DNA from: Bacteroidota bacterium
Lineage (GTDB): Bacteria > Bacteroidota > Bacteroidia > B-17B0 > Aurantibacillaceae
NCBI GenBank assembly: GCA_025362395.1
Contig: JANYGK010000084.1
Coordinates: forward strand, 1 to 36,492
Length of the DNA stretch: 36,492 nt
Direction: 5' to 3'
Shown here: positions 6,443-29,398 of the stretch, in pieces
Position numbering within the stretch: position 1 is the first letter of the stretch
Layout of the letters: each line of letters begins with the position of its first letter
Program-made: the position numbers and the translations under genes
The notes under the pieces: generated by a model
What the model saw: only the letters and a program-made list of their open reading frames with translations
The model's database searches: none
Told to the model about the DNA's origin: nothing

Positions 6443-6479
6443 TAAAAACATAAAGAGCATCATGTGATGCTCTTTATGT
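6443..6479 (-). terminator. Intrinsic terminator or attenuator within the envelope cassette
   Basis: A perfect inverted repeat with 15-base arms (6448-6462 and 6465-6479, core AAAGAGCATCA) is followed on the minus strand by a run of T (6447-6443). It lies between the first and second envelope genes and only 8 bases before the start of the second, so it probably reduces rather than abolishes read-through. Confidence 0.7.
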
Positions 6480-7141: not shown

Positions 7142-9010
7142 TTAACTAATTTTAAGTAATTCTTCTTCCGCGTCTACCTCCACTCTTAAATTATCAATAA
7201 TAAATTCCTGGCGATCCTGTGTATTCTTACCCATATAATAGCTTAGTAATTGTTGTATAGACGATTGCTGATCCAATAACACAGGCTCTAAACGAATGTC
7301 TTTTCCGATAAAATGTTTAAACTCATCCGGCGAAATTTCTCCTAACCCTTTAAATCGGGTAATTTCAGGTTTAGGCCCTAATTTAGCAATGGCCGCTTTA
7401 CGTTCTTCGTCACTGTAACAATAAGCTGTTTCTTTTTTATTACGTACACGGAATAAAGGTGTCTGTAAAATATAGACATGATTATTCTTAACCAAATCAG
7501 GAAAAAATTGTAAAAAGAACGTTAATAATAATAAACGGATGTGCATACCGTCCACATCAGCATCGGTTGCAAGTACTACATTATTATAACGCAATTCATC
7601 CAGTCCGTTTTCAATATTTAACGCAGCTTGTAATAAATTAAATTCTTCATTTTCATACACTACTTTTTTGCCTAAACCAAATGAATTTAAAGGTTTTCCT
7701 TTTAAGCTGAATACGGCCTGTGTATTCACATCACGCGTCTTAGTAATAGAGCCGCTTGCAGAGTCACCCTCACAAATAAAGATAGTAGTTTCATGTGCAC
7801 GCGGATTTTTTGCGTCATCTAAATGCACGCGACAATCACGTAACTTTTTATTATGCAGCGACGATTTCTTCGCACGCTCACGCGCTAATTTTTGAATGCC
7901 TGATAGTTCTTTACGCTCACGCTCATTGGCTAAAATTTTTGCTTCAATAGCGCGTGCTGTTTCAGGATTTTTATGTAAATAATTATCGAATTGCTGTTTA
8001 ATAAAGTCGCCAATAAATGAACGCATGGATTGGCCACCCGGTGCAACATCTTGTGAGCCTAATTTTGTTTTAGTCTGAGATTCAAATACAGGTTCCTGCA
8101 CACGCACAGATATGGCCGCTACAATGGATTTACGAACATCCGTCGGATCAAAATCTTTTTTATAAAACTCACGGATCGTTTTTACAATTGCTTCCCTGAA
8201 GGCCGTCTGATGCGTACCTCCTTGGGTTGTATATTGCCCGTTTACGTAACTGTAATACTCTTCAGAGAAATGTTCGTTACTATGCGTCATGGCTAATTCT
8301 ATATCTTCACCGCGTAAGTGAATAATAGGATATAAAATTTCGCCGGTAATATTTTTTTCCAACAAATCTTTTAACCCGTTATCCGATTTATAAGTTTGCC
8401 CGTTAAACGTTAGTGTTAAGCCTGTATTTAAAAAGGCATAATTCCAAAGCATCCTGTCAATATACTCATGAACAAAATGGTATTTTTTAAAGATCGTATC
8501 ATCGGGTCTGAATTCAACATAAGTACCGTTTGCTCCGGTTGTTTTTTCAACCTTAGATTCTTTTACCAATTCACCGCGTGAAAACTCAGCTGTTTTAGAT
8601 TGTCCGTCGCGATAAGCTATTACTTTAAAGTTAACCGCCAAAGCGTTTACCGCCTTAGTCCCTACCCCATTTAAACCAATCGATTTTTTAAAGGCTTCGC
8701 TATCATATTTACCGCCGGTATTAATTTTAGAAACTACTTCTACGACTTTACCCAAAGGGATTCCACGCCCGTAGTCACGAATGGAAACTACCCCTTCTTT
8801 CACTTGTACTTCAATTTTTTTACCGGCGCCCATCATAAACTCATCAATAGAGTTATCCATTACCTCTTTGATCAGTACATAAATCCCATCATCAAATGCA
8901 GACCCGTCACCAAGCTTGCCAATGTACATACCCGGACGCATCCTGATATGCTCTTTCCAATCGAGAGACTTAATACTGTCTTCGTTATAACTTGCTATTT
9001 CTTTTGCCAT
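7142..9010 (-). CDS. parE: DNA topoisomerase IV subunit B (ParE)
   Basis: ATPase subunit of topoisomerase IV. The GHKL ATP-binding motifs are in place: [11 protein letters not shown] (Glu49, Asp52, Asn53), DYGRGIPLG (79-87) and [12 protein letters not shown] (112-123). The S5-like transducer follows, then the TOPRIM domain with EGDSASGS near residue 417 and DADVDG near residue 481, which bind the metal ions used in strand cleavage, and a short C-terminal tail. At 622 residues it matches ParE (about 630) rather than the longer Gram-negative GyrB. It starts 4 bases after the stop of the DUF1016 nuclease gene, with no room for an independent promoter in the gap, so its transcription probably depends on the ychF promoter or a promoter inside the nuclease gene. 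Confidence 0.95.
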
Positions 9011-9014
9011 TTCA

Positions 9015-10205
9015 TTACTTTTTTTGTTTTTTTCCTACTATATATTCAACCTCGGCCTCATTCATAATTTTAATTAAATCATCAGAACTTGGTAAATATT
9101 TTTTCAATTTTTTAGGAAGTTGTTCCATTAAATTATATTTAGAAACGCCAATTGGCTTATCCATATCCGCCACAGAGTATTCAACCGTACTATCATTTTT
9201 TTCCTTACATAAAATAATACCTATAGAAGGGTTTTCATCTTTTAACTTTATATATTTATTTAAAATACCTAAATAGAAATTCATTTTACCTGCGTATTCA
9301 GGTATAAATTTACCGCGTTTAATATCTATTGCGATCAGGCACCTTAATTCTCTATGAAAAAACAATAAATCAATAAAATATTCCATATCAGCATGTATTA
9401 TACGGTACTGATTCCCCATAAATGCAAACTCTTTTCCTAAAGATAAAATAAACAATCTTAAATTTTTAATAATCCCTTCTTCGATCTCTCTTTCATCAGG
9501 ATTGTCAGGATCCTGAATATTTATAAAATCCAATAAGTACTCATCTTTAAATGTAAGTATTGCTTTTTCATGTAAGCTTTTTGGTAAAGTTGTTTTAAAA
9601 TTGTTAGAGAGCTTCCCCTGCTTTTTAAAATAATTACTTTCTATTTGATATTCCAAAACAGATACAGTCCATTGGTTTTCTGCAGTTTTTTGAATATAAA
9701 ATTTTTTCTCGTCAATTGTTTTAGTTCGTTGTAAAATAGTTGTATGATGAGTAAACGAAATATTTAAAAAATAATTATAAAAATCATCAGAAAAAATTTC
9801 TGTTTTTTTTGTTTTAACTCTTCCAAAAACCATTGGTAATTGCGGCTGTAATTGTCCAGTCAGTGACTGGACAATTACAGCTTTTTGAGTATTTTTTTCC
9901 AATTGTCCGGTCAGTGACCGGACAATTGGAAAGGAAGAATAATAGCTGTAAAAATGTTTCATAGTGGCTAAATTACTTCTTGAAAATCCTCTTAACCCCG
10001 GCAAAGAATTTTGCAAATCAATAGAAATAGTTTCTAATACTTTTGCCCCCCAAGCTTCTTGTTCTGTTTTTTCACTTAATAATTTGCCTACATTATAATA
10101 TAAGATCAACAGCTCCTTATTAACCAACTTTGCGGCATTGTATCTGCTTGATACAATTTCTTGCTTTAATTGTTTAATAAATTTAATGTAAGCTGCTTTT
10201 GTCAT
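9015..10205 (-). CDS. DUF1016/YhcG-type PDDEXK nuclease carrying in-frame palindromes
   Basis: A 396-residue protein of the DUF1016 (YhcG) family. The N-terminal helical domain contains ARLVNKELL-like text ([20 protein letters not shown]) and [17 protein letters not shown]. The C-terminal PDDEXK nuclease-like domain contains [21 protein letters not shown] and [15 protein letters not shown] (about residues 272-305): the Asp, the later Ile-Asp-Ile-Lys and the Pro-Glu-Tyr are the expected active-site pattern. Between the two domains, residues about 92-121 hold two copies of SLTGQL encoded by two perfect DNA palindromes; without them the protein would be about 362 residues, close to what I recall as the family norm. 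It is packed between ychF (11 bases) and parE (4 bases). Such proteins are often near restriction-modification genes, but none is visible here. Cellular role unproven. Confidence 0.85.
9845..9881. repeat. Perfect 37-bp palindrome, copy 1, inside the nuclease gene
   Basis: Arms 9845-9862 and 9864-9881 are exact reverse complements (18 bases each) around a single central base at 9863. The core is AATTGTCCAGTCAGTGAC. It is translated on the minus strand as [11 protein letters not shown] in frame. Confidence 0.97.
9896..9932. repeat. Perfect 37-bp palindrome, copy 2, inside the nuclease gene
   Basis: Arms 9896-9913 and 9915-9932 are exact reverse complements (18 bases) around 9914. The inner 27 bases match copy 1 except one base pair (A/T replaced by G/C, changed on both arms), and the outer five pairs differ but remain paired. 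The centres lie 51 bases, or 17 codons, apart, keeping the frame; the peptide is [11 protein letters not shown]. Confidence 0.97.
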
Positions 10206-10216
10206 TACAATATGGG

Positions 10217-11317
10217 TTACACATTAAACCTGAAATGCATCACGTCACCATCAGCTACTATATATTCTTTTCCTTCCACCCTTAATTTACCAACTTCTTT
10301 ACAGGCAGCTTCCGAACCGTAAGTTACATAATCGTTATAGCCTATTACTTCAGCACGAATAAATCCTTTTTCAAAATCGGTATGGATCACTCCCGCTGCT
10401 TGCGGCGCCGTCATCCCGTATTCAATGGTCCAGGCACGCACTTCTTTTACTCCCGCCGTAAAATAAGTTTGCAGCTTCAATAATTTGTAAGCAAATTTTA
10501 TCAGCTTATTTACACCCGGTTCATCCAATCCCATTTCACCAAGAAACATTTGTTTTTCTTCATATGTTTCTAAAGAGGAAATCTCACTTTCCATTTGCGC
10601 CGTAATTACAAGAATTTCCGCACCTTCATTTTTTACGGCTTCTCTAACAGCATCCACGTGGTTGTTTCCTGATTTTGCTGAAGCCTCATCTACATTACAC
10701 ACATACATTACCGGTTTGATAGTTAACATATGTAAATCTTCAATATATGGCAGCTCGCTGTCTTCAAGTTTACACGCACGTGCTGATTGACCACTTTCCA
10801 AAGTTTCTTTTACTTTTAAAAGTGTATTGTATGTTCGCACAGACTCTTTATCATTACCTACTTTCGCTGCTTTTTCAAACTTTTTCAGTTTAGCATCAAC
10901 TGATTCCAAATCTTTTAATTGAAGCTCTGTATCAATAATTTCTTTATCACGAACCGGGTTTACATTACCGTCTACGTGAATCACATTATCATCATCAAAA
11001 CAACGAAGCACATGCAATATCGCATTGCACTCCCGAATGTTCGCTAAAAATTTATTACCTAAACCTTCTCCTTTGCTTGCTCCTTTTACCAAGCCTGCAA
11101 TATCAACGATCTCAACAGTAGTCGGTAAAATATTTTGAGGCTTTACTAATTCAGCCAGTTTATTTAAACGTTCATCCGGAACAGTTATAACTCCTACGTT
11201 TGGTTCAATCGTACAAAACGGGAAATTTGCCGCTTGTGCTTTTGCATTACTTAAACAATTAAAAAGAGTTGATTTTCCTACATTTGGCAACCCTACAATT
11301 CCACATTTTAAAGCCAT
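10217..11317 (-). CDS. ychF: Redox-regulated ATPase YchF (Obg-family)
   Basis: A 366-residue ribosome-associated P-loop ATPase of the Obg family. The P-loop GLPNVGKSTLFNCLS is at residues 9-23 and the switch motif DIAGLVKGASKGEGLGNKFL follows; the base-recognition motif is NVDE rather than NKxD, which in YchF fits ATP preference. A helical hairpin, LKKFEKAAKVGND, is inserted in the G domain, and a C-terminal TGS domain ends in ADGDVMHFRFNV. Length and order of domains are normal. It is the first gene of the minus-strand block; a TATATTTG box lies 82 bases upstream, sharing the 250-base divergent gap with the transketolase promoter. Confidence 0.95.
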   Translation of the reverse strand: MALKCGIVGLPNVGKSTLFNCLSNAKAQAANFPFCTIEPNVGVITVPDERLNKLAELVKPQNILPTTVEIVDIAGLVKGASKGEGLGNKFLANIRECNAILHVLRCFDDDNVIHVDGNVNPVRDKEIIDTELQLKDLESVDAKLKKFEKAAKVGNDKESVRTYNTLLKVKETLESGQSARACKLEDSELPYIEDLHMLTIKPVMYVCNVDEASAKSGNNHVDAVREAVKNEGAEILVITAQMESEISSLETYEEKQMFLGEMGLDEPGVNKLIKFAYKLLKLQTYFTAGVKEVRAWTIEYGMTAPQAAGVIHTDFEKGFIRAEVIGYNDYVTYGSEAACKEVGKLRVEGKEYIVADGDVMHFRFNV

Positions 11318-29366: not shown

Positions 29367-29398
29367 GAAAAGCCGGAGTTATAACTCCGGCTTTTTTT
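29367..29398. terminator. Intrinsic terminator after pyrG
   Basis: A perfect 20-base dyad centred on TATA (29372-29391, core GCCGGAGT) is flanked by A and T runs (29368-29371 and 29392-29398). It can act in both directions for pyrG and the convergent channel gene. Confidence 0.9.

Follow-up and report, generated by a model that had tools for sequence, protein, structure and literature searches.

Two long palindromes lie within the codons of one gene in the stretch of DNA analyzed here (the window, 36,492 nucleotides), and the question is why a coding sequence should contain them and what keeps them paired. The original prediction described them as twin 37-bp palindromes read in frame, each with exact arms of 18 nt and one central base, and the sequence confirmed this at the positions given in Table 1. 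The shared 27-mers start 51 bp apart and differ at two positions, which form a single base pair, while the outer five pairs are GCTGT/ACAGC in one and TTTCC/GGAAA in the other, also as first described. Palindrome 1 encodes residues 92-104 of the protein and palindrome 2 residues 109-121, each in frame and ending on the first base of the next codon. Among the five palindromes of the window with exact arms of at least 11 nt and a loop of up to 6 nt, the twin pair had the longest arms. The window also contains palindromes at 6448-6479 and 29368-29395, with arms of 15 and 14 nt, outside the DUF1016 gene.

Table 1. Features of the window gene and the palindrome of an ORF6N gene in the same genome.
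Feature	Position	Strand	Description
DUF1016/YhcG gene	9015..10205	-	396 aa, unbroken ORF; matches PDC-S02 models
Palindrome 1	9896..9932	-	37 bp; 27-bp site proper at 9901-9927
Palindrome 2	9845..9881	-	37 bp; 27-bp site proper at 9850-9876
DUF1016_N domain	9621..10169	-	Residues 13-195 (Pfam); ParB/Noc-like fold modelled in the compact relative L067
ISFTH	9747..9761	-	Residues 149-153, at the place of the family motif LSWSH
YhcG_C domain	9090..9554	-	Residues 218-372 (Pfam), putative PDDEXK nuclease; also matches to PD-(D/E)XK nucleases
ORF6N palindrome	L285:1501-1525 = G000:C95:59352-59376		

The gene runs from 11 bp after a ychF-like gene (10217-11317) to 4 bp before a parE-like gene (7142-9010), both named by eye. 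Its protein scored above the curated Pfam cut-offs for DUF1016_N (PF17761, 112.9 bits against 32.8) and YhcG_C (PF06250, 185.5 against 32.5), and the PDC-S02 models that it matches belong to a library covering both known and candidate defence proteins. D279 and K296 were invariant across 26 aligned proteins, and the nuclease activity is putative. The palindromes had been placed between the two domains, which proved wrong, because the Pfam bounds put both of them in an insertion within DUF1016_N. In compact relatives, LSWSH directly follows the palindrome, whereas in the window protein an insertion parts ISFTH from the palindromes. In relatives (loci L144-L171), the ychF-parE interval varies: many have an AIM24-like gene there, some have other genes (ORF6N and PIN-like ones among them), and gaps of 9-151 bp are also seen (gene names assigned by eye, ORF6N excepted). 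A boundary of an empty site for the window gene was sought in these relatives and no clean one was found, the place being mostly taken by another gene or a short gap.

DUF1016/YhcG genes of many phyla carry a 27-bp palindrome of the form AATT-N9-N-N9-AATT, usually inside the coding sequence. It encodes the DUF1016_N motif xIVxTLSxQL, which precedes SWSH, nearly always in one reading phase. By record title, the loci with a site are from Bacteroidota, Proteobacteria, Clostridia, Spirochaetia, Planctomycetota and archaea, and homologues among 60 relatives often have a palindrome of their own with other letters. The comparison of homologues proposed earlier therefore gave a positive answer: the letters of the stem differ and the pairing stays. 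The usual pairing is 13 bp per arm, and the 18-nt arms of the window palindromes are atypical of the family. In the window gene, the family motif and its site occur twice, 51 bp apart. The idea of a domesticated foreign linker fell away, since the peptide is a variant of the family motif itself.

The pattern was derived with 80 loci from one-genome-per-species records, which were the top protein matches among 587 relatives, and with 28 loci from viral contigs. After short, ambiguous or duplicate ORFs were left out, 141 of 151 ORFs entered a test in which synonymous codons were permuted within each gene. A 27-mer with at least 11 of 13 pairs was present in 112 of the 141 ORFs, in the same phase in 109 of these 112. 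Windows with at least 10 pairs numbered 194, compared to 40.8 expected. The gene-wide p was below 0.01 in 72 and below 0.05 in 109 of the 141 ORFs, while 32 missed 0.05; for the window gene it was 0.002. A second test fixed the location by the protein motif alone, the DNA playing no part in the choice. From 200 ORFs, 34 without the motif and 9 duplicates were dropped, and the remaining 157 genes had a mean of 9.68 of 13 pairs compared to 5.65 from synonymous codons, with p < 0.01 in 107 genes. Windows shifted by 1-6 codons gave only 2.06-4.32 pairs. Nine pairs or fewer were found in 43 of the 157 genes; some of these have a site elsewhere within the gene (L006, L008, and L026), and in others no site was found. 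These results clearly support the earlier claim that the pairing is preserved beyond the peptide. Chance origin was ruled out by the synonymous-codon controls. An assembly artefact, which had been named as a possible refutation, was rejected because independent genomes share the layout.

The pairing also reaches into the protein sequence. In the 157 genes, V at motif position 2 occurred with Q at position 8 in 54 of 62 cases (p = 4e-19), R with E in 14 of 20 (p = 2.5e-8), and F or C with K in 6 of 13 (p = 0.0014), where the p values take genes as unrelated. Positions 2 and 8 are coupled because GTN faces CAA, CGN faces GAA, and TTY/TGY faces AAA. An earlier amino-acid pair test with sites picked by their DNA was weaker, owing to rare cells: 52 of 2000 permutations reached the observed chi-square. 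The inner letters of the site vary from gene to gene without losing their pairing, even where this entails a change of amino acid, and IVxTLSxQL seems to owe its conservation partly to the DNA.

To locate the sites in whole genomes, the pattern AATTN7CASTGN7AATT was searched in 77 genome entries, namely those of 38 relatives and 39 genomes reached via 40 of the 80 loci. It matched 96 times, 63 times with at least 11 pairs, and 55 of these 63 palindromic matches lay within 1 kb of a DUF1016 hit. (The hits of G031 and G098 coincide and probably come from a single genome; one palindromic and one other hit were therefore counted twice.) Of the eight distant matches, two lay in decayed or truncated DUF1016 pieces (G063:C48 and G070:C7) and one close to the end of a contig (G067:C19); another was separated by about 1.5 kb from a DUF1016 nuclease domain (G076), and the remaining four were solo sites (G065, G063:C55, and two in G085). 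Only 4 of the 33 matches with fewer pairs were near DUF1016. In the genome of the window itself, the core pattern matched at the twin sites only, with up to 3 mismatches allowed, so the genome search proposed for the 27-base core returned two places. A dispersed repeat was thereby ruled out in this genome, and the mobile REP-like element of the original prediction found no support in it or in the 77 entries. Another palindrome type, roughly AATTCTTGGGTN...ACCCAAGAATT, was seen near DUF1016 pieces (upstream in L019 and downstream in L126).

In 167 loci, sites with at least 12 pairs were counted by location: the genes contained 100 of them (0.552 per kb), the 100 bp upstream 5 (0.303 per kb), and the 100 bp downstream 6 (0.363 per kb), the last two being small counts; the counts near genes include one locus under two names (L016 = L113), a terminator (L027), and a palindrome of another type (L125). 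Beyond 1 kb of the gene, the density was 0.020-0.039 per kb. Non-coding copies stand directly before the start or after the stop of DUF1016 genes. In G320, one gene has no in-gene site and six copies in 55-60-bp units directly after its stop, and a second gene has no in-gene site of at least 11 pairs and two copies before the ORF. The gene of L109 has one copy on either side, identical over 37 bp. Cores of one gene were alike (0.745 compared to 0.408 between genes; 36 pairs in 34 genes, a set that includes a few chance windows, as in L030 and L041), and 0 of 2000 permutations were as high. The exceptions, with dissimilar cores in one gene (0.29-0.50), were L036, L053, L068, and L117. The spread was patchy, covering 32 of 295 genomes and 21 of the 60 relatives.

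The yhcG gene of Escherichia coli allowed alleles of one locus to be compared. In K-12, it contains sites at 303-329, 342-368, and 381-407 (12, 11, and 12 pairs), and a fourth (12 pairs) follows the stop codon. The first site reads CGCC in most fetched strains and GTGC in E21, EC-10, and others, with the opposite arm changed to match, so that three paired changes separate the alleles at one in-gene site. The non-coding 3' site reads CTGC in K-12 compared to CTCC in EC-10 and MSB1_4I, again with both arms altered. Sites in one E. coli locus differ at positions 5-7 yet mostly stay paired. An O157:H7 strain is without the second and third sites, and its yhcG is 78 bp shorter. A yhcG match, at least partial, was present in 4,417 of 5,426 genomes.

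Among the alternatives, the best supported takes the palindrome as a site of recombination or mobility, at which the nuclease acts and the gene and its passengers are gained, lost, or reshuffled, solo sites being empty sites or scars; we consider this rather unlikely, though it accounts for several observations. In strain ABU 83972, where yhcG is missing, a single perfect site remains between gltD and nanQ, and its exact 27-mer was found inside yhcG of other strains; a 32-nt query of this site had its best place at 99% identity or more in 949 genomes. In K-12, the gltF-yhcG stretch has a site at either end (11 and 12 pairs), and its outer flanks resemble the empty strain, nearly identical on the left and similar on the right, which fits either a loss between two sites or a gain at one. 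The identical flanking copies of L109, the four solo sites with no nuclease-domain hit within 1 kb, and the patchy spread point the same way. Junctions also fall at sites: the yhcG match of BL21(DE3) (L174) and L178 stops at base 406, inside the third site, and an ORF of G070 leaves DUF1016_N about two residues past its site. On the other hand, deletion between direct repeats gives the same scars and needs no enzyme. The BL21 and ECCWS199 junctions adjoin transposase genes, the BL21(DE3) sequence past base 406 being a segment with a small transposase gene. Moreover, the window gene has no flanking site between itself and its close neighbours, its palindromes are absent elsewhere in the genome, and a copy inside the gene would be cut as well. 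As a further observation, an ORF at L210:1281-1715 matches DUF1016_N positions 2-58, ending slightly beyond the palindrome, and its C-terminal part had no DUF1016 match. A family search for solo sites in other enterobacteria reached 7 genomes, 3 of them with a match, and the 4 enterobacterial loci checked had weak palindromes, none with AATT at both ends and the best with 11 pairs.

Quasipalindrome correction is template switching that repairs near-palindromes. Upkeep of this kind, in which a near-palindrome is perfected and the DNA has no function of its own, would produce the paired changes of both arms seen in the E. coli alleles, and a yhcG relative that contains stop codons (L217/L249) has kept a perfect palindrome. 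We regard such upkeep as improbable. In 123 sites with at least 11 pairs, the pairing fell to 0.15-0.34 just beyond 13 pairs, about the expectation from column composition, and positions 5-11 paired far above the column expectation, although in this set, as in those used for mismatches and for within-gene similarity, inner pairing is high by construction because sites were preselected at 10 or 11 pairs or more. The AATT ends and the CA-S-TG centre are nearly constant across sites, and palindromic hits of that pattern lie mostly at DUF1016 genes. The existence of non-coding copies and of an array also speaks against such upkeep.

The mismatches within the sites discriminate between DNA and RNA. 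In 157 motif-like sites (19 of 176 were dropped as not motif-like, some of them real variants), sense-strand mismatches were 74 G.U and 69 A.C, with synonymous opportunities of 660 and 705. With position 1 left out, where wobble codons favour G.U, the counts were 46 and 63. Since G.U and A.C are about equally frequent, the constraint acts on DNA rather than on mRNA. A translated RNA hairpin that regulates how the nuclease mRNA is translated or degraded is very improbable and was ruled out as far as tested by this mismatch balance; the fixed length and the copies past the stop codon also oppose it. In its favour, a scan called palindrome 2 terminator-like, though on the strand opposite the gene. 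The hairpin of the original prediction, read as RNA, is therefore unsupported. The palindrome is a DNA-level, family-wide element of fixed length, tied in cis to DUF1016 genes.

To find a candidate reader, the N domain was compared with known folds. An AlphaFold model of the N domain of L067 alone (51 sequences) had a mean pLDDT of 90. Rows 1-7 of its Foldseek search were ParB/Noc at E values of 0.06-0.27, with no row at E <= 0.001. VIA-align, which re-ranks the Foldseek list, placed ParB/Noc/Spo0J in rows 1-12, where about 100 residues were aligned with Z values of 8.6-7.3, all short of the 13 recommended for helical folds; the next row had 6.2. HTH_ParB (PF17762) matched 20 of 51 N domains at E <= 1 (best 8.4e-6) and the second DUF1016 gene of this genome (L029) at 23.7 bits, over the cut-off of 22.6; a Pfam search of the window protein gave no HTH_ParB match at E <= 0.001. 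In hhalign against ParB, the E value was 3.9e-5 with a probability of 70%, and a second comparison gave 54%; LSWSH was paired with SMGHAR of ParB, and the stretch encoded by the palindrome comes before it. When solved structures were searched with a profile of the N domain, Spo0J came up at E 0.15 and a Listeria protein at E 0.34. Model and profiles together moderately support DUF1016_N as a ParB-like DNA-binding domain. The similarity of cores tracks protein similarity about equally for the N part and the nuclease part (partial correlations of 0.141 and 0.164), and thus does not single out the N domain as the reader.

The reading we favour is that the DUF1016 protein probably has its cognate DNA site in the palindrome of its own gene, to which it would bind as a ParB-like dimer, most plausibly for autogenous control. 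ParB recognizes palindromic parS sites and is able to silence genes in their neighbourhood (PMC4368675). The protein itself is the likely reader, we infer, because its N domain resembles ParB and ParB binds palindromes. The N-terminal domain would bind the site as a symmetric dimer, with each gene carrying its own site within its codons, just before its start or just after its stop, and each lineage having its own inner letters. The likeliest effect of occupied sites would be to retain the nuclease at its own locus and to keep expression of the gene low. Repression, as opposed to cleavage or movement, is a guess; if it resembles the silencing of genes adjacent to parS, the flexible position of the sites would be allowed. 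Of the three readings in the original prediction, recognition by the nuclease itself fits best, the ParB-like N domain of relatives being in its favour, while the binding is what we infer.

Some observations qualify this reading. The likeness to ParB is moderate, and both the dissimilar cores within some genes and the E. coli positions 5-7, which vary while mostly paired, also fit recognition by shape. The 34 of 200 ORFs without the protein motif and the 43 of 157 genes with nine pairs or fewer at the fixed location count against it too. The YhcG nuclease domain was earlier placed nearest to YraN-like Holliday-junction resolvases (PMC1189080); on account of this and of positions 5-7 in E. coli, the site may be recognized as a cruciform. 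A site after the stop codon is also unusual for an operator.

A DNA-binding protein with palindromic sites in cis is of a known kind; what is unusual is that the site forms part of the coding sequence for the putative binding domain and that paired changes maintain it across phyla. ParB/parS partition systems have an N-terminal CTP-binding domain and a ParA partner, and a parS lies inside the spo0J gene of Bacillus subtilis. ParB/Noc with parS/NBS share with the DUF1016 system palindromic sites in cis and, as fold and profile comparisons moderately suggest, a helical ParB-type DNA-binding domain. In contrast, the DUF1016 protein has a predicted PDDEXK nuclease (the window protein matches DUF1016_N and YhcG_C only), and its site is 27 bp long with one central base and letters that vary by gene, while parS is described as highly conserved (PMC4368675). 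Rickettsia palindromic elements likewise sit in coding sequences without disrupting them (PMC4316617). Those elements are about 100-150 nt and also occur in intergenic regions and RNAs, whereas the DUF1016 site is 27 bp, belongs to one family, lies mostly at one place, and has varying letters; its pairing ends at 13 bp per arm and its palindromic hits are mostly at DUF1016 genes, which sets it apart from them. PARCELs are also coding sequences with dyad symmetry and horizontal spread (PMC2996958), but they are tandem repeats of 25 residues, and the word nuclease is absent from the main text of that paper. The coding palindromes of Nematomorpha mitochondria similarly keep protein function and pairing together, but reach 284 bp and occur in mitochondrial protein genes (PMC6649704).

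RAYT/REP and homing endonuclease genes each have a gene with a cognate palindrome or target nearby, and the insertion of a homing endonuclease gene destroys its target. Unlike REP, the window palindromes have no dispersed copies in their genome. Unlike the target of a homing endonuclease, the DUF1016 site stays intact inside the gene, and the 27-mer of the empty E. coli strain is present inside yhcG of other strains, which rules out that class. A literature search, with subscription journals outside its scope, returned no paper joining DUF1016 with ParB and none joining PDDEXK nuclease domain-containing proteins with palindromes; in the literature searched, as far as its texts were accessible, no established function of YhcG/DUF1016 was found.

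A second DNA-binding family appears to have a similar layout. The palindrome TTGATATCAC-N5-GTGATATCAA lies inside an ORF6N gene of this genome (Table 1) and, in G051, ahead of the start of another ORF6N gene. Many ORF6N (PF10543) genes (L287-L316) have palindromes of their own, 23-33 bp long, in the codons around a [SC]Q motif. From 30 loci fetched by family, the ORF-finding rule gave 22 genes and none in 8 loci; L285 and L286, which came from the palindrome search, were left out. A palindrome at the [SC]Q motif with arms of 11-15 was present in 13 of the 22 genes, a length reached by at most 1 of 60 synonymous shuffles, and 9 of the 22 were without it. In L290 and L312, the palindrome is upstream. 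It is possible, and we put it forward tentatively, that some stand-alone genes for DNA-binding proteins form a class in which the protein's target is written into the codons for its own DNA-binding domain. Site and protein would then change in step, and the site would serve both as a control element and as a place of gain, loss, or recombination of the gene.

The original observation was right, and it is larger than first described. Pairing across phyla, kept even at the cost of amino acids, offers a handle on YhcG/DUF1016, a widespread and patchily distributed family that matches models of a defence library, since it predicts a ligand and a mode of binding. It is also a clean case of selection at the DNA level shaping a conserved protein motif. 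If the same is true of ORF6N, mobile DNA-binding genes may generally carry their own sites within the coding sequence, a trait that has been overlooked.
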